Shown piece after piece: positions 1 to 11,684 of a stretch of DNA of 36,778 nucleotides. A program made the position numbers and the translations under genes. The DNA lies in the IMG/VR virus record IMGVR_UViG_3300007512_000103, positions 1 through 36,778 of that record; one strand, 5' to 3'. Position 1 is the stretch's first letter, and every line of letters starts with the position of its first letter. The stretch comes from a virus. The notes beneath the pieces are model-generated. The model worked only from the letters and a program-made list of their open reading frames with translations. It was not told where the DNA came from and made no database searches.

Positions 1-295
1 CATCATTCTCCTCGCGTGTGATCGCTATGATTACCAGGTAGTTCAGCGCGTCAATTATGGTGTCATGCATGCGTTCGCCAGTCACTACTGGGTCACGCTG
101 TAACAGGTTCGCCATCCGACTGATCTTGTCGCACAGGCGTATGAATGTTGCTTGGTCAGTGGGGCACACACCTAGAATCGCAGGCAGTTCAAAGTTGCTG
201 AAGGGTGCGCCAGTTCTTGCATAGTCTGAGTTCTTCTTGATAAAGATCTCAAGCGCTTCAGCGCATAGGGCCTGATGCCTCTCCTTGATTTTCAT
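1..295 (-). CDS. DUF1599/Nmad1-like protein, 3' end cut by window edge
   Basis: Partial gene: ATG at 295, 98 codons visible, no stop before the window edge. The start overlaps the exonuclease stop as ATGA, so the two are translationally coupled. The visible protein has a short N-terminal helix, a 'KKNSDYARTG' segment, then 'FIRLCDKISRMANLL' and 'MHDTIIDALNYLVIIA', the order and spacing I know from DUF1599, also called nucleotide modification associated domain 1 (Nmad1). That family is small, all-helical and common in phages; it has been linked by genomic context to modified DNA bases, but no reaction is established that I can cite. Lying after the exonuclease, it occupies the place of T7 genes 6.5-7. 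The assignment is by motif recognition only. If the window is circular, the reading frame continues into the proline-rich gene at the right edge (see findings). Confidence 0.7.
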   Translation of the reverse strand, partial: MKIKERHQALCAEALEIFIKKNSDYARTGAPFSNFELPAILGVCPTDQATFIRLCDKISRMANLLQRDPVVTGERMHDTIIDALNYLVIIAITREEND

Positions 296-1038
296 GGTGT
301 CCACAAGATCACCTCCTTCTTGCGACTGTTCCAGTCAGACTTGCGAAGGATCCGAGCGCACCTGGCCTGCACCAGAGCCTCCTGCTCCCCAAGCCCTGCT
401 TTGTCATAGGCAGCGAGGACCGTAGCCCATGTTGCACCGTCCTCATCGAGCATACGCGCGGCACGGGTGTTCCCAATTTTAGGGCAGCCGCCATACCCGT
501 CAGTTGTGTCGCCGGCCAGCGTCTGCTTGAGATGGTTGTAATCTGCCTGCTCGACAGTCACATCGTACACCTCAGCGTCATCCTTCCATGGGTTGTAATG
601 TAGCCCAGGAATGGTGTCCAGGTCCTTGTCGATGCTCACGATGATCTTCTCCCCCTTGATCCGCGGTGAGGTCTGGAGGATGCCCAGCACATCATCAGCT
701 TCGAGTTTGGGCATGACCCTTGATCGATACACATCGAGCACATACTCGCGCACCTCTGCGTAGCACAGGGGCTTGCGCTTCTTCTTACGATGAGACTTGT
801 AAGTGGAGAGGATACCCTTGCGGAAGTTCTCCTGATCAGATACGCACATCACCACATCTGTAGCCTCGAGTTCATCTTTCAACTCGCAGACCTCCAGGTC
901 TAAACGCTCCTTAGCCTCGCCCCCTTCGCTGGTCAGCGTGAAGCGATCTGGTGCCCACTCCGTACACACCTCTACAGCTATGGAGTATTGGTAGATCAAT
1001 ACATCGGCGTCAATCAATAGGGTTCGTCTCTCGCTCAT
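292..1038 (-). CDS. T7 gp6-like 5'-3' exonuclease (FEN family)
   Basis: A 248-aa FEN/5'-nuclease family protein that in T7 relatives degrades host DNA, removes RNA primers and processes recombination ends. Acidic metal ligands are visible in the family order: Asp10 and Asp12 (LLIDADVLIY), Asp68 (VSDQENFRK), the EADD cluster at 113-116, Asp137/Asp139 (SIDKDLD), and Asp177/Asp180 in the helix-3-turn-helix segment (GDTTDGYGGCPKIGNTRA). The basic arch is KSHRKKKRK near residue 81. The length is somewhat below T7 gp6 (about 300 aa). ATG at 1038 is preceded by a GAGGAGG Shine-Dalgarno about 12 bases upstream, inside the 3' end of the homing endonuclease gene. The stop overlaps the next start. Position after DNA polymerase is as in T7. 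Confidence 0.93.
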   Translation of the reverse strand: MSERRTLLIDADVLIYQYSIAVEVCTEWAPDRFTLTSEGGEAKERLDLEVCELKDELEATDVVMCVSDQENFRKGILSTYKSHRKKKRKPLCYAEVREYVLDVYRSRVMPKLEADDVLGILQTSPRIKGEKIIVSIDKDLDTIPGLHYNPWKDDAEVYDVTVEQADYNHLKQTLAGDTTDGYGGCPKIGNTRAARMLDEDGATWATVLAAYDKAGLGEQEALVQARCARILRKSDWNSRKKEVILWTP

Positions 1039-1543
1039 CTTCTGTGTTTCCCTCCTCAGGGTCGTAACAAATCCGTTTCGCTGCTCGAAGTTCTTTGATC
1101 AATCTCTCCCGCCGAACAGAACGCGGTTGAGATTTGTAGATGTCTATCAGCAGCTGCGCTTGCTGCTGCTTCTCATGCAGATAGGGGAAGACGCGCAGAC
1201 TAAAATCAACTGCTTCCTGCCCGTAGACTGCCCACTCGTATGCTGAACGCCAACTCTTCTTCTGCGATGTCCTCGATGAGAGCATGCCCCCGTAGCGCTC
1301 CATCAGATTGAAGAGCACAAACGGGAATGTGCTCCAGACTACGACTTTGACCCCTCCGCTCGGAGATGCGTACCAGCAACCTTCACCGTCTGCATATCCT
1401 GCAGCGTAGATCTCATATTCCCTAGTGCGTGTCGGCCCATGTATCTCCGATAGAGTAGTCGCCGGCCATTGGGCACGGAAAGCACGCGGCTTCCGCTGAA
1501 TTAGAAATTGCCTGCACTGCAGCTTGCGCCAGGTCTTGGGCAT
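1010..1543 (-). CDS. LAGLIDADG homing endonuclease, single motif; true start uncertain
   Basis: The reading frame holds 'EIYAAGYADGEGCWYA', a clear LAGLIDADG helix ending in the catalytic acidic residue, followed by a beta-strand-like stretch, 'LMERYGGMLSSRTSQKKSWRSAYEWAVYG' and a helical basic C-terminus, as in single-motif enzymes that act as homodimers and nick or cut a long DNA site. The only ATG start (1543) lies 122 bases inside the DNA polymerase gene, in its +1 frame, giving about 40 extra residues before the motif; such proteins normally start 5-15 residues before it. No ATG, GTG or TTG exists in frame close to the polymerase stop, so initiation at 1543, a rare start codon or a +1 frameshift must be considered. 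The 3' end overlaps the exonuclease start by 29 bases. The gene is free-standing: the polymerase C-terminus is intact, so this is not an intein or group I intron ORF. Confidence 0.75.
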   Translation of the reverse strand: MPKTWRKLQCRQFLIQRKPRAFRAQWPATTLSEIHGPTRTREYEIYAAGYADGEGCWYASPSGGVKVVVWSTFPFVLFNLMERYGGMLSSRTSQKKSWRSAYEWAVYGQEAVDFSLRVFPYLHEKQQQAQLLIDIYKSQPRSVRRERLIKELRAAKRICYDPEEGNTEDERETNPID

Positions 1544-3182
1544 GGTTTTCGATTACCTCCATCTGAATTTCGTCATGGACATGAGCAACCATTGCCCACT
1601 GAATGCCATAGGCCAACCGGGTTGACATATGCCTATGCAGCAAGACGGTTGCGTATTTGCACAGTATGCTTGCCCCTGATTGAAGGAGCAGATTCACCGC
1701 ACTGTGCTTGGATCTAACTGGCATCTTCCTGTGATCGATGCCGCGCAGGTAACCTCTACCTGCAGCTGCAGTCACATCTTCTTTGAATCGCTTGAGTGCA
1801 GGCATCTTTGCATACCAGCGCTTCTGCAATTCGGCACCTTCCTTTGCACCCCCTCCAACTACCTCACCTAGCAGTCGAGCTGATCCCCCGTATAGCCAGC
1901 AATAGACTGCGCGTTTCGCTTGGGCTCTCGTGATTTCCAAGGCATCAGCATTAGCCTGGTGCACATCAGAGTTCAGTACCGTGTCAATGTATTTGCCACC
2001 GTCATAACGCTCGAGGTAGCCGGCGAGAACGCGCAGCTCTGCTGACTTCAGGTCAACACCTACGAGTTTGTACCCAGCAGGAACGCAGAACAACTCACGA
2101 AATTCCTGACCGTACTCAGAACTCAAACTTGGCAATTGCGCCATGTTCGGCCTGATATGAGCGCAACGCGATGATACTGTTCCGATGTGCATGACATGAC
2201 CGTGGATGCGCGAGTCTCTACGCACAAGTTTCGTCAACGCATTCTTCCCGTGCGCCAACTGCCCCAAGCGCTTGTCGAGCAGCAGGGATTTCAGCAGCAC
2301 CTTCGCCTCTGGGTAGGGCATCGCAGACAGCACTGCCTCATCGATACGAGGTCTGCCATCAGGCGTGAATAGCTCAGGCTCCCAGCCCATAGACTTGAAA
2401 CGCTCTGCGATCTGCACTCTGGAGGACGGATTGAAAACGACAGTGCGCTCCTTCTTGATTTGCTTCTTAGGTGTCAAGTAGGTCTCTACCAGCGGAGGGA
2501 ATGCAGCTTGGAGTTCATCACTGAGCCCAGCTCTGTCTGCTGTCAACCTGTTGACCAATGCGTCAGCTTTGACCTGGTCGAACAGGAAACCGTGCTGCTC
2601 CTGCAGCACTAGCGTGCCTGCGAACTGCTGCTCCAATGCCAGGGCAGCGTCAGGGATGTCCTGTTTGAGCAGGTAGTCAAAGAGTGCGGCTGTAGAGCGG
2701 CAGTCCTGGGCACAGTACTCGGCCAGGGCCGGCGAATACTCGAGCGTCTCCCAGTCCTCATCCTCAAAGTCATCACCAAAGGTATCCTTTTGTACACCGA
2801 GTCTGTGGCCCCAAGCCTTGAGTGAATGGCTACCTACTAACTTCTTAGGCATGAACTCAGGCTCTTCAGAGAACCTGCGCCAGTCATTGTCTTTGATTCC
2901 AGGAAATGCAATGCGTGCCATCACCAGCGTGTCATTTATCACGCCTGATATTTTCGCATGGGGGTAGAGCGATTTGATGAGCGGGAAGTCGTAGGCAATG
3001 ATGCCATGACCACATATCTCATCAGCCTGCTCAATGACCTGCAGCCCAGCGTCAATACTGTTGTGCTCATCCCCTGAATAGCTATCCACCGTGCCGTCCT
3101 CGTTCAACACACACAGGACTAGCAGTTTGCTGGCAGTGTCCAGCTTCCCGTTTGCTTCACAATCAATTGTGATTCTCGTCAT
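1422..3182 (-). CDS. T7-like family A DNA polymerase with 3'-5' exonuclease
   Basis: Replicative polymerase of 586 aa (T7 gp5 is 704). The N-terminal proofreading domain keeps its acidic residues: Asp7 and Glu9 in TIDCEAN, Asp in 'VINDTLV', and 'YCAQDCRST'. Polymerase motif A is 'GVDLKSAELR' near residue 375, motif B 'RAQAKRAVYCWLYGG' near 417-432 with Arg, Lys and both Tyr conserved (Gly after the first Tyr is replaced by Cys), and motif C 'VHDEIQME' near 535. 'VVFNPSSR' near 247 matches the T7 thumb, but only about 16 residues separate it from the preceding helix, so the thioredoxin-binding loop of T7 gp5 appears absent. The C-terminus ends 'WADTH', like the T7 end 'WAICH'. ATG at 3182 has a strong AAGGAGGAG Shine-Dalgarno. 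It overlaps its upstream neighbour by 20 bases. Confidence 0.96.
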   Translation of the reverse strand: MTRITIDCEANGKLDTASKLLVLCVLNEDGTVDSYSGDEHNSIDAGLQVIEQADEICGHGIIAYDFPLIKSLYPHAKISGVINDTLVMARIAFPGIKDNDWRRFSEEPEFMPKKLVGSHSLKAWGHRLGVQKDTFGDDFEDEDWETLEYSPALAEYCAQDCRSTAALFDYLLKQDIPDAALALEQQFAGTLVLQEQHGFLFDQVKADALVNRLTADRAGLSDELQAAFPPLVETYLTPKKQIKKERTVVFNPSSRVQIAERFKSMGWEPELFTPDGRPRIDEAVLSAMPYPEAKVLLKSLLLDKRLGQLAHGKNALTKLVRRDSRIHGHVMHIGTVSSRCAHIRPNMAQLPSLSSEYGQEFRELFCVPAGYKLVGVDLKSAELRVLAGYLERYDGGKYIDTVLNSDVHQANADALEITRAQAKRAVYCWLYGGSARLLGEVVGGGAKEGAELQKRWYAKMPALKRFKEDVTAAAGRGYLRGIDHRKMPVRSKHSAVNLLLQSGASILCKYATVLLHRHMSTRLAYGIQWAMVAHVHDEIQMEVIENHAQDLAQAAVQAISNSAEAACFPCPMAGDYSIGDTWADTH

Positions 3183-3510
3183 CAGTCTCCTCCTTGAGCT
3201 GTCGTTTCACTTCTTTGTCCCAATCGCAAATCGATTGGTAGAGCTGCAACCAGGCTGCGTCAGGGTCACCCGCTCCAAACCCATTCGCGTCTGTCCAGTT
3301 GCGTGCTTGTGCTATTACCCTGAACCCTGCCAGCAGGAGCACGCGCATCTTCCGCATCCACACCTCGTTCTCCAAGCGCTCCTTTATCAGCAGCCTGTCT
3401 GATTTCCTGAGCGCCCTCTGCATTCTCTTTACCTGTGCACGCAATGCAAATTCAGCTAGAGATGCCTTGTGAGAAGGCCGCGGTTCGTCATCCATTGCTG
3501 TAAATTTCAA
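3163..3510 (-). CDS. hypothetical protein between primase-helicase and DNA polymerase
   Basis: A 115-aa protein I do not recognise. It is predicted to be mostly helical and highly charged: an N-terminal basic helical stretch (about residues 18-60, rich in Arg, Lys, Leu and Glu), a short hydrophobic patch 'VLLLAGFRVIAQA', then 'GAGDPDAAWLQLYQSI' and an acidic tail. No Cys motif, signal peptide or membrane span is seen. The longest frame starts with TTG at 3510, overlapping the helicase stop as TTGA; an ATG five codons later (3495) is the alternative start. The gene lies where T7 has small genes 4.3-4.7 between gp4 and gp5, and overlaps the polymerase start, so co-translation with the replisome genes is likely. 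Function unknown. Confidence 0.75.
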   Translation of the reverse strand: MKFTAMDDEPRPSHKASLAEFALRAQVKRMQRALRKSDRLLIKERLENEVWMRKMRVLLLAGFRVIAQARNWTDANGFGAGDPDAAWLQLYQSICDWDKEVKRQLKEETDDENHN

Positions 3511-5144
3511 AAGGGCACACCACTGTCGGCAGTTGTAGGCACAACCTTCAGCGCAGGATCAAACTCAACTAGCCTTCCAGTCTCCTCGTCATAACGCAGA
3601 TGCCCAGCTGGGCCACAGATACCTGACCAGCGATTTTTCACAATGGTCAGTTTGGTTTGATGCCTTGAGTCTTCCTCGCTAGTGATGTTGCGAGACAGTC
3701 CAATTACCCCGTCAGCGAGTTGAGCAATTCCACCAGACCCGCGGAGATGCGATAGCGCAACCTGTGCTCCGCCTTCATGATCGGTGTCAGAGACTCTGCG
3801 GAGGTGTGACACCACAATCAGACTGCAGTCTAGCTCAGAGCACAGCGTGCGTAAGGCAGTGAAGAGCACATCTAAAGCCTTGCGCTCATCATCGAGACCA
3901 AGGCCGCTGATTGCCATATGGGCATGATCGAGGACAACGAACCTAGCACCCAGAGCCTTCACCGCGTAGCGAATGCGGTTCATCAGGGGCTCCAACTGCA
4001 TGCTGCCAAAGTGCGCCCACATAATGCACTTGTCTCTGATCACCTCATCGAAGGCTGTCTGCAATTCATCTTGATCTAATTCGTTTGGCGGCAGCAGATG
4101 GATAGGCTTTGACAGGTGCAGCGCAAGCAGAGCCAGGGCTGAACGCTTCACGCTTTCCTCAAGCCCGAAGAATGCAACTTTGTGCCCCTGCTTGATCAGT
4201 GAATAGGTGACCTCTCTGGTGAACTGAGTCTTGCCAACACCTGTGCCCGCCGCAATCACATACATCTCTGCGCGCAGCCCCCCGAACATATCGTTGAGTT
4301 TTTGATAAGGCCATTCAGCAACTGTGCCTGATTCCTTCTCAGTCAGCGCATCCCAAACCTCATCGCCAACGACAATGCCGTCAGGTGAATACGCTCTAGC
4401 CTGGAAGATCGCATCAATCACCTCTTTGCTGCGCCCTTGCGCGACCATCTCGCACGCATCTTTGAGAGGCAGGCGACCGATCTTTGCACGGCCTGGACTC
4501 AGGATCTCAGCGCATTCTGCTGCAGCTTTCTGCCCACTTGCATCTGAGTCGAAGAGCAGTACTACCTCACGCCAGGTTTCCAACCACTCGAGCTTCTTGA
4601 GGAATGTCTTCTTCGCACCCCCGTCCCCGCAGGGCACGCTGACAGTCGGCCACTTCCCCCCGCTTGCCTGCCAGACAGCATGAGCATCGTGCTCACCTGT
4701 GCACACAATCAGGCGACCGAAGACACTTGGACCTGGCGCAAACAAGTGGTCCCCATAGAATCCACACTTGGACATGTTGCCTAGCACCTTGAAACTCTTG
4801 CCGGCGTACCTGAGTTTCTGCGCTACAACTGTCCCGCCTGAGTCACGGTACTGGAAGACCAGCACCCTCTGACCCGCTCTGTCTGTTGCAAAGCCACACC
4901 CAAATTTCTCGAGCGTCTCGCGGCTGAGGCGTCTGTTCTGAATTCCAGCAGCCTCACACTCCAGCAGCCCCGCGTCGCGCTTTACTACCTGACCGTTCGT
5001 AGGCACAGCGCTGCCCCCTGTGTTGGCCTTGCAGGAAAAGCAGTGCGCTGTGCCGTTGTCATACACAGCACGCGCATCGCTTGACCCGCAGTCAGGGCAG
5101 GGCTCGTGTCGCAGAAAGTTTGAAGGCTCAGAATCAAACGGCAT
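3507..5144 (-). CDS. T7 gp4-like primase-helicase
   Basis: A 545-aa bifunctional replisome protein (T7 gp4A is 566). The N-terminal zinc-binding domain has Cys16, Cys19, Cys35 and Cys38 (CPDC ... CFSC), used for primase site recognition. A TOPRIM primase core follows with 'CTGEHDAHA' near residue 150 and 'LLFDSDASGQ' near 198. The C-terminal RecA-like ring helicase has Walker A 'GTGVGKTQF' near 300, 'FFGLEES' after it, Walker B 'FVVLDHAHM' near 400 with the expected downstream 'LIVVSHLRR', and a DNA-binding loop region 'HLRGSGGIAQLAD' near 464. It should unwind the fork 5'-3' and make primers for the polymerase encoded just downstream. It overlaps the RusA-like gene by 11 bases. Unlike T7 there is no sign of the internal start that yields a short helicase-only form, but I cannot exclude one. 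Confidence 0.96.
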   Translation of the reverse strand: MPFDSEPSNFLRHEPCPDCGSSDARAVYDNGTAHCFSCKANTGGSAVPTNGQVVKRDAGLLECEAAGIQNRRLSRETLEKFGCGFATDRAGQRVLVFQYRDSGGTVVAQKLRYAGKSFKVLGNMSKCGFYGDHLFAPGPSVFGRLIVCTGEHDAHAVWQASGGKWPTVSVPCGDGGAKKTFLKKLEWLETWREVVLLFDSDASGQKAAAECAEILSPGRAKIGRLPLKDACEMVAQGRSKEVIDAIFQARAYSPDGIVVGDEVWDALTEKESGTVAEWPYQKLNDMFGGLRAEMYVIAAGTGVGKTQFTREVTYSLIKQGHKVAFFGLEESVKRSALALLALHLSKPIHLLPPNELDQDELQTAFDEVIRDKCIMWAHFGSMQLEPLMNRIRYAVKALGARFVVLDHAHMAISGLGLDDERKALDVLFTALRTLCSELDCSLIVVSHLRRVSDTDHEGGAQVALSHLRGSGGIAQLADGVIGLSRNITSEEDSRHQTKLTIVKNRWSGICGPAGHLRYDEETGRLVEFDPALKVVPTTADSGVPF

Positions 5145-5580
5145 GGGCTGCAGTGAATGGGTAGAGGTTGACGAGAACGCCAGGGGGCTCTTCAGCAGTC
5201 GCGTAAATCTTCAGCGCATTGATCGACAGCACCTGGTTGTCATCGTGCAGCAGCACTGGAACCAGCGCATCTCCGACAGCGCGAATAAGTTTGTCGAGAT
5301 CTGGTTTTTTTGTCGGCCACTTCGGTGCACTAGGGCGCAATCCTTTTGTACCCCAATGCCCCTTAGGACGCGGCAGATAGAAGATCAGGTCAAGCACCAC
5401 AGGTTCCGTAGGTGTGATCGTCCACATCCCACTCTCAGCCTGTGCTGTATTGGCTACCAACGCCCGCCACTCTTTGAGTCCCTTCGCTGCACTGGTCAGC
5501 CTTGGCTTTCCAGCGATCATGAAGGCACGCATCGAGCCTTGCGGGCGCGGCAGTCCGAATGTCCTGAACTGGACAGGCAC
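5134..5580 (-). CDS. RusA-like Holliday junction resolvase
   Basis: A 148-aa protein matching the RusA family of crossover junction endodeoxyribonucleases. The signature is in the C-terminal half: 'LPRPKGHWG' near 69-77, 'KKPDLDKLIRAVGDALV' at 91-107 with Asp94, Asp96 and Asp104, then 'HDDNQV' at 112-117 with the paired Asp, and Lys124. These correspond to the metal-binding aspartates and basic residues of RusA. In T7 this position belongs to the unrelated endonuclease I (gp3), which resolves branches before packaging, so this is a likely functional replacement. The start is GTG at 5580, directly after the SSB stop (TAAGTG). The gene overlaps the helicase start by 11 bases. Confidence 0.85.
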   Translation of the reverse strand: MPVQFRTFGLPRPQGSMRAFMIAGKPRLTSAAKGLKEWRALVANTAQAESGMWTITPTEPVVLDLIFYLPRPKGHWGTKGLRPSAPKWPTKKPDLDKLIRAVGDALVPVLLHDDNQVLSINALKIYATAEEPPGVLVNLYPFTAAHAV

Positions 5581-6278: not shown

Positions 6279-8696
6279 CTAATGGAAAAAGTAGGGTGAG
6301 TCCTTAACGGACTCAACAGGGAAATCGCCTTGCGGCGGGGGAGGAGGACACTCGACACCAGCAGGTAGCATTGCATCTACCTCGGCTTTGAATGCCTCGA
6401 AGGGATTGCCTGAGAAGATCTCAGCCCAGGCAGAACGGAGTGCCTTATGCAGGCGGGGGATGTTGGCCGCGTGCACTCCGTACGAATCGTGGACGCATGA
6501 CCAGGCAGTGATTGCATCATCACCCTTGCTGGCCTGGGCTACGGTGAGCTGACACGCAGCAGCATCGTAGGAATGGATGAGGTTAGCCGGCGTGGCTTGG
6601 CGCACTCGGCGTCCGTTGATCTCGTCTTGATCTACCCTATAGAGGTGCTTGCGGCATACCTCACCTACTGAGCTCTTGATCCTCACCGTCTCCCACTTGC
6701 TGTAGCGCTGAACAACAGGGAATCCTACAACAGGGGTTGTCCAGCGCAGCGCAATCCCATGACTGGTGCATAGGTCTGCTACCCCGTGGAGCCAAGCCAT
6801 AGCAACCTTTGCTGCGACCACTGTCTCGCCTATCGCGTCCCACATGATCTGCGCCAAGAATGTGCAATGATCATAGGTGTCTAGCGTGAACGGTGTAGGT
6901 TGACCGCCTAAGCGCAGATCGTCATACCAGGCAGTGATTGAGCGCTGGCATGAATAGATCGTGCTTCCATAGCACAAGGTCATCGTGGGTTTTTTAGCGG
7001 CAGATCTTGGCATCTCACCATCAACAAACTGCAGCCAGCCCTTCGCATGCGGGTGGTCTGAAGCCTCGAGTTTTTGAGTCACAAGATCGGAGACCTCCTG
7101 ATAAATATCCGCAGGTCTATCAGCTGGCGCAACACTCACAGATGCTGCTGTCTCTGCGTGTCTCATCGCAAGAGCGAAACACTGAAGACCATTGTTCACC
7201 CCATCCACATGCACAGGCAGATGACTCACGAACCCTAGCCCCTTGTCAAGGAATTCACCGTACTCCAAACACCATGCGAGGAATTCCCAAGCGCTCCCCT
7301 CTGCCTCTGTCCACCAGGTACATGAGATCGGGTCAGAATAGACCTCATAGATCGCTGACCTATTGTCATGCACCCACTGAATTCGTTCAGCGAATGAGCA
7401 CTTGTCAATGCCAAAGTGGTTGGCACCTGAGATGGCAAACGCATCAGCCTGCTCTTGATTTGTGATTGCCATCCCATCCCAGAATTCAAGCAGGGATCGC
7501 GCCTTCTCATCTCCCTGCGGCTGAAGGAAATAGGGAACAGGGTAGAGGCGTGATCGGAAGTCAGCGCTCATCGGGAAGTAGAAGGGAATGAACTCGAACT
7601 TCTCTGCCATGTATAACAAGCGTGCGATTTGTACACGCTTGCTCTTCAGCTTGAGATTGCGCTGGTGTACAGCTGCCGCGGTGCGCTTCCACTGCTTGAG
7701 GATGACCTTGTCTTCAGCCATTCCCGGCAGTGGGGGAGGGAGCTCAAGATCATTACGCGAGGGCAGGCCGGCGATCTCTGAGGACTCATCCCAGAAATGC
7801 TTGAGCACAGTCAGCACATTCTGATTGACCCTCCACTTAGTGCGCTGCAATGCGTTGACCGCATCGTAGAACAGCGGCATCTCGGTTGAGTCAAGGTCAG
7901 CCAGGTATGCGTTCCTCGTGGTCTTCACCAAGGGCTTGCGTAGGATCTCGTTTGTGTGATAGCCCCCGCCCCTCATTGCAAGGTGATCGAGAGGTATTGC
8001 AACAGTAGGCAGCCAGAACGGCATCAGCACCTCATGCTGTGCATGCGCCGAGTGCAGCCAGTCTTCTGTGGCTTTGGTTGCTGCTAGCATTGTCTGCTTG
8101 CGACCGCGGTGATTGGTTTGAGTGCAGACAGTGATCACTCCCTCTGCTGCACATGTCATGCCTATTGTTGCCTGCCGCATCAGCTCGATTGCAGCCAAGC
8201 CAACCTTGATGCGTTGCTTCTTAGGCATCGCTTCGACTTCAGTCTTGTGCCACACCGCACCTGAGTGCAGAGCCCTGCGTACAAAGTGCCTGCTGCTCAA
8301 CTTGTGTCGGCGCAGGATGCGATTGAATTTGACAGGGTGCTCCTCTTTGAACCTGGAGAAATTGATCTCGTCCTCAATCGCTGCACCGATATGCTCTGCT
8401 GCGCTGATCATGCTGCGCCTCAGGCAGATGTCATCTAGCACTGCACGCGCAATGATGTGCGCGGCGATGTTAGGATCCAGGCGCTTGAGAGTTTTGACCG
8501 CGGGCCTCGTATGAGCGTGAGGGTCTGATGTCCAGCGCTCGATAGCGTCAGCGAGAACTGCAACGCATTCACGCAGCAGATGCTGACCTGGCGCAGTCAC
8601 TGTCTCACGCCGGCCAGCGCGTGCTGAAGCTACCGTCTGCCTGTACCGAGTGATGCCTGCGTTCAGCATCTCGATTTCTAGTTCAGCTTGACGCAT
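6279..8696 (-). CDS. T7-like single-subunit DNA-directed RNA polymerase
   Basis: An 805-aa phage RNA polymerase (T7 gp1 is 883) that should transcribe the middle and late genes. Landmarks: 'ADFRSRLYPVPYFLQPQGDEKA' near residue 380 (T7 'DWRGRVYAV...NPQG'), motif A 'LPVHVDGVNNGLQ' near 497 with the metal-binding Asp, motif B 'KKPTMTLCYGS' near 570-580 with the Lys and Tyr that position the nucleotide, and motif C 'CVHDSYGVHA' near 735 with the second catalytic Asp. The expected specificity-loop region ('WETVRIKSSVGEVCRKHLYR') does not carry the T7 promoter-contact residues in obvious register, so promoter preference may differ. The C-terminus is 'SPYFFH' instead of T7 'DFAFA'. The start shares one base with the methyltransferase stop (TAATG). 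Confidence 0.97.
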   Translation of the reverse strand: MRQAELEIEMLNAGITRYRQTVASARAGRRETVTAPGQHLLRECVAVLADAIERWTSDPHAHTRPAVKTLKRLDPNIAAHIIARAVLDDICLRRSMISAAEHIGAAIEDEINFSRFKEEHPVKFNRILRRHKLSSRHFVRRALHSGAVWHKTEVEAMPKKQRIKVGLAAIELMRQATIGMTCAAEGVITVCTQTNHRGRKQTMLAATKATEDWLHSAHAQHEVLMPFWLPTVAIPLDHLAMRGGGYHTNEILRKPLVKTTRNAYLADLDSTEMPLFYDAVNALQRTKWRVNQNVLTVLKHFWDESSEIAGLPSRNDLELPPPLPGMAEDKVILKQWKRTAAAVHQRNLKLKSKRVQIARLLYMAEKFEFIPFYFPMSADFRSRLYPVPYFLQPQGDEKARSLLEFWDGMAITNQEQADAFAISGANHFGIDKCSFAERIQWVHDNRSAIYEVYSDPISCTWWTEAEGSAWEFLAWCLEYGEFLDKGLGFVSHLPVHVDGVNNGLQCFALAMRHAETAASVSVAPADRPADIYQEVSDLVTQKLEASDHPHAKGWLQFVDGEMPRSAAKKPTMTLCYGSTIYSCQRSITAWYDDLRLGGQPTPFTLDTYDHCTFLAQIMWDAIGETVVAAKVAMAWLHGVADLCTSHGIALRWTTPVVGFPVVQRYSKWETVRIKSSVGEVCRKHLYRVDQDEINGRRVRQATPANLIHSYDAAACQLTVAQASKGDDAITAWSCVHDSYGVHAANIPRLHKALRSAWAEIFSGNPFEAFKAEVDAMLPAGVECPPPPPQGDFPVESVKDSPYFFH

Positions 8697-9643
8697 TACC
8701 TGATCCTTGCCCAGAGATCTCTGAGTGCGAGGGCTGCTTGTTGGGGGACAACGGCATTGCCGAGGGCTCTAAGCTGATCCACCCGCACGGGAACCCCATC
8801 AACCACTCCACGAATAGAGGATTCAGTCGCAGGCCAGAGGTCCTCTGGGACATTTGACCAGTCTCCTTCGGGACCTGGTGGGAAGGTGGCGTCTGAAACC
8901 TCTGCTCTGCTGCCTCGTCTAGCTGCCCTTGGCGTTGGTCTAGTTGAAACGATCCCTTGTGGTCGTTTGCTCCTGGTGTCGGCCAAGCCTTTGCCTCCTT
9001 GTCCTGAGTTACACCCTTGTGGTCTCTCTCTGCGGGAGTGCGCCACTGCCTCATCGAGTCGGTCAATGTTGTCCCTGGATGCATCACCCCCGTCTTGGTC
9101 GAGTGCCTGCCGCTCGAACGGGAATCCCCTGCCACAGCGGTAGGCCAAGACGAACACTCTGTTTCTGCGCTGAGTAGATCCGGCTTGGGCTGCGGAATAA
9201 ACTCCCCACTCAGCATCGAACCCCAGTTCCATGAGATCTTCGAGGACTTGACGAAGTCCCTTGGAGATATGTCCTTGGACATTTTCGAGAACAACGAGAG
9301 CTGGCCCACATTCTCTGATGATTCGCTTGACCTCAGGCCAGAGGTGTCGAGGGTCTTCAACTCCTTTGCGTGCTCCTGCACAGGAGAAGGGTTGGCATGG
9401 GTATCCCGCAGAGACAATATCCACGCATCCACTCCACGCTGCGCCATCGAAGGATCTAAGATCCGTCCACACAGGAGCGGGAGCCAGCCTCCCTTCCTCC
9501 ATGCGCGATACCAGGACTTGGCAGCACGCGGCTTCCCTCTCCACGAAACAGACTGTTCGAGCGCCTGGAAACGCCAATTCGATTCCGAGATCGAGTCCTC
9601 CGATTCCTGAACAGAGGCTGAGTACCCTGGGACAACTATCCAC
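8696..9643 (-). CDS. DNA (cytosine-5-)-methyltransferase
   Basis: A 315-aa C5-cytosine methyltransferase with the motifs in order: I 'LSLCSGIGGLDLGIE' (residues 8-22, AdoMet binding), IV 'GYPCQPFS' with catalytic Cys83, VI 'LENVQG' at 119-124, VIII 'STQRRNRVFVLAY' at 156-168, a variable target-recognition region, and X 'ALGNAVVPQQAA' near the C-terminus. It transfers a methyl group to carbon 5 of cytosine. No restriction enzyme gene is adjacent, so it is probably an orphan enzyme protecting phage DNA from host restriction, or acting on gene expression. Start is GTG at 9643, three bases after the lipoprotein stop, with TGGGGG about 11 bases upstream. It ends on the RNA polymerase start, an unusual place for a methyltransferase. 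Target sequence cannot be read from the protein. Confidence 0.93.
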   Translation of the reverse strand: MDSCPRVLSLCSGIGGLDLGIELAFPGARTVCFVEREAACCQVLVSRMEEGRLAPAPVWTDLRSFDGAAWSGCVDIVSAGYPCQPFSCAGARKGVEDPRHLWPEVKRIIRECGPALVVLENVQGHISKGLRQVLEDLMELGFDAEWGVYSAAQAGSTQRRNRVFVLAYRCGRGFPFERQALDQDGGDASRDNIDRLDEAVAHSRRERPQGCNSGQGGKGLADTRSKRPQGIVSTRPTPRAARRGSRAEVSDATFPPGPEGDWSNVPEDLWPATESSIRGVVDGVPVRVDQLRALGNAVVPQQAALALRDLWARIR

Positions 9644-9646
9644 AAC

Positions 9647-10183: not shown

Positions 10184-10632
10184 GCCTGCCTCCTGCGCTC
10201 TGATGGGGGAGATGCCTCGCCTCTCCGCTGCAATGCTTCAGAGCACGCCGCGTGCAAGCATCTCTCTCGCAAGATGTCAGCGGCATAATCATGGCTGCCA
10301 TCGAACACATTTTCTGCTGCTCGAAGTGTCAGCGTGAACTCGCATGGCTCGCCGGCCAAGGTGATTGAATCCCTGAGCCTGTCCAAGTACCCCGCGAAAC
10401 ATGTCACGCAGAGAGACAAACTGGATCGTTCTGTGCGAGGAGTGGTCCCTTTAGGAACACAATATTCAGCCTGTCCCCAGCAGTGCGGATGCTCACATCT
10501 CTCGCCCTTAGGAGGCAGAGATGAGCGTGGGGGGCGCGGCACCTCTGACTCTATCCCATGATTGCACGGCAAGGGCAGGCATTCCCAACCCATTGTGTCG
10601 GATAATGTATGTCGTGTTCCCTTATCAATCAT
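10180..10632 (-). CDS. Cys-rich hypothetical protein, possible zinc-binding
   Basis: A 150-aa protein without a recognised family. Cysteines are clustered: 'RCEHPHCWGQAEYC' around residues 45-58 followed by 'SLCVTCFAGYLDRLRD' about 16-20 residues later, which gives CxxxxC...C and CxxC pairs plausible for one zinc ribbon or treble clef. The C-terminal third is helical and ends in a basic stretch. ATG at 10632 overlaps the integrase stop (ATGA), placing it directly downstream of the integrase, where excisionase or small regulatory proteins often occur; that role is a guess. It overlaps the next gene by 4 bases. Confidence 0.65.
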   Translation of the reverse strand: MIDKGTRHTLSDTMGWECLPLPCNHGIESEVPRPPRSSLPPKGERCEHPHCWGQAEYCVPKGTTPRTERSSLSLCVTCFAGYLDRLRDSITLAGEPCEFTLTLRAAENVFDGSHDYAADILRERCLHAACSEALQRRGEASPPSERRRQA

Positions 10633-11684
10633 GACTCATCCCCCTCAGGCGCATATCTGCGTTCCATCGCATCCCTTGCACCTGTCAAGTGGTCTGGTGC
10701 CAGATGTGCATAGGTGTGCGTGACCTGCACGCTCGAATGCCCAAGCCATTTGCTCACTTCGTAGAGCGAGATCCCGCTCATGACCAGGCGGGAGGCACAG
10801 GTATGCCTCAAGGTATGCGGGGTGATGCCAGCAGGGTCAAGGCCGGTCTTCAGCTTCGCTCGATTCCACTGCTTGCCAAAGGTAGCCTGATTGATTGCGA
10901 AAGGCACAGGCAAACCATCAGCGTGCCTCGTCTTCATCACATGCAAGGCACGCTCAGGAATAGGAACGCTCCTGTTCTTGTTTGACTTTGTACGAGTGAA
11001 GGTGACCTGGCCGCGGTCGAGATCAACATTGTCCCAGGTTAGACTCAATGCCTCACCTACTCGACACCCTGTCCACAGCAGGAAGACTGCCAGGTCATGC
11101 GCTGCCTGCGAGATAGTGAGCAGAGCCTGGAACATCTCAGTCAATTCATCCTCGCTCAAGAATCGCGCTTCCTTCGCCGGCTCATGCACATGAGGCAGCT
11201 TGGGACGGTCGCTGATCCAGCGCTCTTCCAGGGCTACAGTGAGCATGCGCCCAAGCGTAGACACAATGCGCTTCACCGTGCTAGGTGCCAGGTCAGCCTG
11301 TTGCAGCGAGGTGATCAACTCACGCACGCTGCCTGTTGTGATTGACTTGATAGGCGTGCTCTCACCCATCTCTTCTATGATCCTGCCTGTTGTGCTTGTG
11401 ACCGTGTCCTCTGAAGGAGATCCAGCCCAGACATGATCAAGGCAGTAGGTACGCAATTGCTCGAGCGTCTCAGGCGCTGCACCCTTAGACAGTCTGCGGC
11501 CTGACGCACGACGCGGGTCTGACCCTTCGAGAATTGCAGCACGCATCCTGAGCTGCGCCAGCTCTGCCTCCTGCTCTGTCGGATAGCTGCACCTGATGCG
11601 CTTCTGCACACCGTGCACATCTTTGAACGACAGGTCTACCTGCCATGAATCAGCTCTGCGCTTGATCACTCCTGAACTTGTCAT
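10629..11684 (-). CDS. int: tyrosine recombinase / phage integrase
   Basis: A 351-aa integrase catalysing site-specific recombination between phage and host attachment sites. The N-terminus 'SSGVIKRRADSWQVDLSFKDVHG' looks like an arm-binding beta domain; a SAM-like core-binding helical domain follows (about 75-165, 'LRTYCLDHVWAG...TVKRIVSTLGRML'). The catalytic domain shows Arg near 208 in 'WTGCRVGEALSLTW', a Lys in 'TKSNKNRSVPIP', His290 and Arg293 (HTLRH), His316 (WLGHSS) and nucleophile Tyr325 (THTYAH), so the active site is complete. ATG at 11684 has AAGGAGG ten bases upstream. It is the first gene of the leftward operon leading to RNA polymerase, the arrangement seen in temperate T7-like phages. 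No CI-like repressor was recognised nearby. Confidence 0.95.
   Translation of the reverse strand: MTSSGVIKRRADSWQVDLSFKDVHGVQKRIRCSYPTEQEAELAQLRMRAAILEGSDPRRASGRRLSKGAAPETLEQLRTYCLDHVWAGSPSEDTVTSTTGRIIEEMGESTPIKSITTGSVRELITSLQQADLAPSTVKRIVSTLGRMLTVALEERWISDRPKLPHVHEPAKEARFLSEDELTEMFQALLTISQAAHDLAVFLLWTGCRVGEALSLTWDNVDLDRGQVTFTRTKSNKNRSVPIPERALHVMKTRHADGLPVPFAINQATFGKQWNRAKLKTGLDPAGITPHTLRHTCASRLVMSGISLYEVSKWLGHSSVQVTHTYAHLAPDHLTGARDAMERRYAPEGDES

Follow-up and report, generated by a model that had tools for sequence, protein, structure and literature searches.

The window analyzed here is the 36,778-nt stretch of the viral contig IMGVR_UViG_3300007512_000103, in whose coordinates all positions are given. 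On its minus strand, a gene for a T7 gp5-like family A DNA polymerase (1422..3182; DNA_pol_A, E = 7e-37; phrog_17, E = 2e-116) is followed by a LAGLIDADG frame and then by a gene for a T7 gp6-like 5'-3' exonuclease (292..1038; 5_3_exonuc_N, E = 1.6e-9; phrog_107, E = 6e-56). The LAGLIDADG frame is open from 1552 to its stop codon at 1012-1010, and the gene within it (1010..1543) encodes 177 aa when read from ATG 1543. It is in the +1 frame relative to the polymerase, overlaps the 3' end of the polymerase gene by 122 nt (1422..1543; polymerase stop codon at 1424-1422) and overlaps the start of the exonuclease gene by 29 nt (1010..1038; exonuclease ATG at 1038). A frame with these two overlaps, its phase and its sole ATG 122 nt inside the polymerase gene had been described in a first-pass annotation of this DNA, and the coordinates agree. 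The same region is present in a second contig, IMGVR_UViG_3300007760_000088, which differs over 2,826 nt by 5 substitutions without any indel; this rules out an assembly or sequencing indel in a GGG run as the origin of the frame.

The phage is T7-like, with a T7-type RNA polymerase, a primase-helicase, and T7 SSB-like and gp13-like proteins. In the second contig, 206 additional bases (its positions 2827-3032) connect the ends of the window (1 and 36778); the genome, ~37.0 kb in length, is therefore either circularly permuted or incomplete at its termini. Several other features of this genome were observed. A tyrosine integrase gene (10629-11684, minus strand; Phage_integrase, E = 8e-30) suggests, at the sequence level, a temperate member of the T7-like phages. 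A 315-aa C5 cytosine methylase gene shares its stretch of the minus strand with a second open frame of 320 aa that covers it (8683-9645 and 8696-9643) and for which no family match was found. A RusA-type endonuclease gene (5134-5580, minus) adjoins the SSB gene, whereas the other T7-like phages examined have endonuclease I in this place.

The protein encoded by the LAGLIDADG frame matched PHROG 5046 (phrog_5046, E = 1.1e-16) and, searched alone, had no match in Pfam, including the curated LAGLIDADG models. Among 64 relatives from the same junction, LAGLIDADG_3 was matched by 27 and LAGLIDADG_1 by 14 (E ≤ 0.01). An alignment of these 64 junction proteins was used both as a profile query and for AlphaFold. 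Against PDB sequences the profile detected I-MsoI (1e-15), I-CvuI (2e-10) and I-CreI (1e-6), and the best Foldseek matches were I-CvuI and I-CreI (E ~1e-6, TM by target up to 0.72). The AlphaFold model (mostly pLDDT ~95-98 in the domain) has an alpha-beta-beta-alpha-beta-beta-alpha order of elements (H37-54, E55-59, E65-71, H74-84, E87-91, E101-107, H108-121), and residues 1-40 at the N-terminus, which are encoded by the overlap with the polymerase, are of low confidence (pLDDT 48-64). The LAGLIDADG helix had been placed about 10 residues after the polymerase stop; in the model it begins ~4 codons before the stop instead, and the motif itself, AAGYADGEG (1379..1405, minus strand), is encoded ~6-7 codons past it. 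The motif contains the acidic residues of this family: A48, D52, E54 and G55 are invariant in the 64 relatives, and E54 would, by analogy, occupy the position of the catalytic acid. Judged from the profile and the model, the domain is of the I-CreI/I-CvuI-like, single-motif LAGLIDADG endonuclease type, and both family match and predicted fold support the earlier view that such a protein is nested between polymerase and exonuclease. I-CreI and I-CvuI are single-motif homodimers, and a dimer is therefore probable for the window protein as well.

Two other assignments were considered and rejected. The label of phrog_5046 is "HNH endonuclease"; however, HNH Pfam models matched neither the window protein nor its relatives, and the predicted fold is that of LAGLIDADG proteins, so that this label looks wrong from the sequences. 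It is shared by many GenBank records (e.g., loci L012, L017, L019 and L020), which match Pfam models for LAGLIDADG but none for HNH. An intron- or intein-encoded endonuclease was also not supported, since Rfam intron families had no match in positions 1-5200 of the window and the polymerase frame is uninterrupted to its conserved C-terminal WADTH.

To find relatives, viral contigs were scanned with a polymerase profile and then with LAGLIDADG profiles. A LAGLIDADG gene lay directly behind the polymerase end in 173 loci of T7-like viral contigs, 85 after de-duplication, and the gene holds this site in many lineages. The phase relative to the polymerase was +1 in 64 of the 85 loci, 0 in 10 and +2 in 11. 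Genes in frame 0 start with GTG or TTG at +3 or ATG at +9 past the polymerase stop, those in frame +2 start mostly with ATG at +2, GTG at -13 or ATG at -52, and the +1 genes reach back into the polymerase. The nearest relative of the window gene is ~43% identical. In a related clade, dN was 0.02-0.45 and dS, where estimable, was mostly above 1, a pattern from which we infer purifying selection on the LAGLIDADG proteins. The match to PHROG 5046, the 85 de-duplicated contigs with the same junction and dN well below dS together indicate that this is not a chance open frame. Degradation of the frame by stops in relatives, which the first-pass annotation had named as evidence against a working gene, was not seen. 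Among the isolate matches to the queries tried, no T7-like phage, as annotated, had a LAGLIDADG gene at this junction; these matches were mostly Gordonia, Streptomyces, Mycobacterium, Pseudomonas and Caulobacter phages, as well as cyanophage PP, where the gene lies between terminase and portal.

The frame had been described as lacking a proper start codon. This description does not hold: ATG 1543, the sole ATG, GTG or TTG in frame upstream of the LAGLIDADG motif, is preceded by the Shine-Dalgarno sequence GGAGGT (1555..1560, minus strand), which lies inside the polymerase gene with an 11-nt spacer, at the long end of the range. The duplex energy of -10.7 kcal/mol is on a par with those of the polymerase (-11.4 kcal/mol) and the exonuclease (-10.3 kcal/mol; AGGAGGG at 1050..1056, minus strand, inside the LAGLIDADG gene), and only 0.9% of 649 minus-strand ATGs have a Shine-Dalgarno sequence as strong. 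It should be noted, however, that GGAGGT is also the product of conserved polymerase codons (Met-Glu-Val) and could be coincidental in this single genome.

Free-standing homologues begin just ~5-15 residues ahead of the motif, a short lead consistent with initiation close to the polymerase stop. Use of a rare start codon there (ATA 1444 or ATC 1411), or re-initiation after termination of polymerase synthesis, was therefore considered. We regard it as unlikely, because no in-frame ATG, GTG or TTG is found near the polymerase stop, a GGAG directly abuts the ATA with zero spacer, and the frame-0 and frame-+2 relatives that do start near the stop use ATG, GTG or TTG. An out-of-frame ATG with GGAG upstream (1438..1440, minus strand) also lies where homologues start. 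It opens a frame of only 33 codons that ends without reaching the LAGLIDADG domain; a single added base would connect the two, as if the gene were a decaying or unexpressed remnant whose original start had been lost by a one-base deletion. Such a history is very unlikely: the second contig carries the same sequence without an indel, the remaining frame and the catalytic residues are intact, this ATG derives from the conserved polymerase codons ACA TGG, and a start at that point is also absent in most +1 relatives.

The relatives offered a more general test of how +1 genes start. In every +1 member, the part of the open frame that lies inside the polymerase contains an ATG, GTG or TTG, in most cases behind a strong Shine-Dalgarno sequence. 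Frame-0 and frame-+2 members lack this pattern and mostly begin at the polymerase stop or close to it. None of 63 +1 members lacked a start before the upstream in-frame stop, compared with an expectation of 5.4 when the far halves were reshuffled among loci (P = 0.0006). Since these loci are relatives of each other, this and the following P values are optimistic in that they overstate independence. The same test on the +2 frame of these genes showed no effect. When the +1 frame was closed within 59 nt, a near start was present in 17 of 17 cases, versus 31 of 46 with a long-open frame (P = 0.004). A TTG at -26, seven bases after polymerase Gly-Glu codons reading GGNGAR, was found in 14 of the 17 short-open and 12 of the 46 long-open frames (P = 8e-5), and comparison polymerases showed no association of this TTG with a short-open frame.

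Start codons near the polymerase stop were not enriched overall relative to "gene-free" polymerases, most of which carry other +1 genes. A later comparison partitioned the polymerases into those with a +1 LAGLIDADG gene, another +1 gene, no +1 gene, or a LAGLIDADG gene in another phase. At equal GC, an upstream start was present in 62 of 62 +1 LAGLIDADG loci and in 16 of 21 frame-0/+2 LAGLIDADG loci (P = 0.0007). Shine-Dalgarno sequences of -6 kcal/mol or stronger occurred in 53/62 and 8/21 of these, respectively (P = 7e-5), in 28/43 loci with another +1 gene and in 2/16 loci without a +1 gene, and the best in-frame Shine-Dalgarno sequence of the +1 loci exceeded that of gene-free polymerases in strength, with matched GC as well. 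The presence of an upstream start thus tracks the position of the in-frame stop, a dependence that neither frameshifting nor rare-codon starts would produce, and this favors ordinary internal initiation, as far as sequence comparison can tell, over a fusion made by +1 frameshifting.

The latter, i.e., a +1 ribosomal frameshift at the polymerase stop yielding a polymerase-LAGLIDADG fusion, is the least probable of the alternatives, even though the phase is +1 in most loci, UGA stops are commoner in +1 members (20/27 vs 21/62) and CATTGA, which superficially resembles prfB and antizyme sites, is found in 14/27 vs 4/62. A fusion of the prfB or antizyme type requires no downstream start, yet each +1 member has one, near starts appear exactly when the upstream frame is closed, and frame-0/+2 members have weaker Shine-Dalgarno sites. 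In addition, the Ile/Thr-Asp/Glu residues that the LAGLIDADG frame encodes at this point account for the UGA/CAT enrichment, the window has CAC UAG G, which is no known slippery site, and unrelated genes in the same slot are likewise +1. Thus, of the three ways of starting proposed in the first-pass annotation, the internal ATG is the best supported, and the fusion is disfavored as every +1 relative keeps a canonical start.

We therefore consider it likely that a free-standing I-CreI-like LAGLIDADG gene is expressed by internal initiation at ATG 1543 as a separate protein, presumably a dimeric homing nuclease. The intact conserved frame, its fold and position, and the pattern of starts and Shine-Dalgarno sequences across relatives were established computationally; from these we infer actual use of the start, dimerization, cleavage and homing. 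Specifically, a single-motif gene of this type would occupy the polymerase-exonuclease slot of a T7-like phage, and ribosomes would initiate in the ordinary way at ATG 1543 in the +1 frame, on the polymerase-containing mRNA, using GGAGGT. The 177-aa product, with a probably disordered N-terminal tail, would presumably act as a dimer, cutting in or near the junction of phages that do not have the gene, and repair after the cut would copy the gene across.

We also searched for signs of such mobility. No gene-free relative above ~64% polymerase identity that could represent the empty homing site was found, and a clade search for complete relatives at 70-100% identity returned occupied junctions only. 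The correlation of LAGLIDADG and polymerase distances was weak (0.27, compared with 0.65 for polymerase and exonuclease); no transfer events were clear from these distances, nor did LAGLIDADG similarity clearly exceed that of the polymerases.

I-CreI, I-CvuI and I-MsoI are products of group I introns within the rRNA genes of algal organelles. The window protein shares with them the fold, the single motif, the acidic catalytic position and a PYLxxKxxQAxL helix segment, but its gene is free-standing in a phage, has no detected intron and starts inside its neighbor. By profile, the phage endonucleases of phrog_5046 belong to the same family; those seen match Pfam LAGLIDADG models and none matches HNH. 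Several of them overlap their neighbors by a few to ~40 nt, e.g., next to thymidylate synthase, but in isolates none is located between polymerase and exonuclease, unlike the window gene. Homing-type genes beside a phage DNA polymerase are known from T3 and its relatives, where HNH genes in this position are mentioned in connection with "collaborative homing" (PMC10448857). The T3 case involves an HNH gene that goes with a polymerase intron, whereas the window has a LAGLIDADG gene and no intron. A further parallel is the ShiLan domain, an HNH endonuclease "hidden" out of frame in phage DNA methylases, whose translation start was left open (PMC11855218). It is similarly a mobile nuclease read in another frame of an essential-type gene, but it lies wholly inside the methylase, whereas the LAGLIDADG gene of the window overlaps the polymerase gene by 122 nt only and has a Shine-Dalgarno sequence and an ATG. 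We also observed a LAGLIDADG gene out of frame and wholly within a DNA methylase gene in Mycobacterium phage DotProduct and Gordonia phages Bibwit and Whitney (L014, L015 and L021). The methylase frame stays open in these phages, which resembles the published hidden HNH case but involves the LAGLIDADG family.

The preference for the +1 phase may have a simple basis. The +1 frame stays open over 41 nt or more ahead of the stop in 75% of gene-free polymerases, compared with just 34% for the +2 frame; a downstream gene that loses its own start could therefore extend back into the polymerase most readily in +1. In keeping with this, the other genes in the slot are +1 too; they encode PD-(D/E)XK proteins (PDDEXK_5, Hjc-like), GIY-YIG-type T5orf172/MUG113 proteins and the uncharacterized phrog_13596. 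The slot thus serves nucleases in general. It is possible, although we hold this only tentatively, that the conserved polymerase 3' end, with built-in ribosome-binding sites and +1 starts, serves as a landing pad for successive unrelated nuclease cassettes (LAGLIDADG, PD-(D/E)XK, GIY-YIG-like) that are expressed from polymerase-internal starts. If so, an incoming mobile gene would need no start of its own and would be hard to separate from the polymerase. Synonymous change was near nil at polymerase codons 26-37 from the end in two LAGLIDADG-bearing clades. The same scarcity was seen in a clade with a +1 PD-(D/E)XK-like gene (L038, L056, L070, L081, L083, L100 and relatives), and it was consequently dropped as proof of the LAGLIDADG start; the stretch may hold a start region or else a nucleic-acid element of another kind.

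These data document a widespread LAGLIDADG lineage in T7-like phages, so far from metagenomes only, and indicate the polymerase-exonuclease junction as a site common to several nuclease families. Gene callers will mis-start or miss such overlapping genes. By placing the start within the 3' end of an essential polymerase gene, the analysis suggests a way in which a gene with no obvious start can be expressed, and it opens the translation of out-of-frame homing genes, a question not yet settled, to direct tests.
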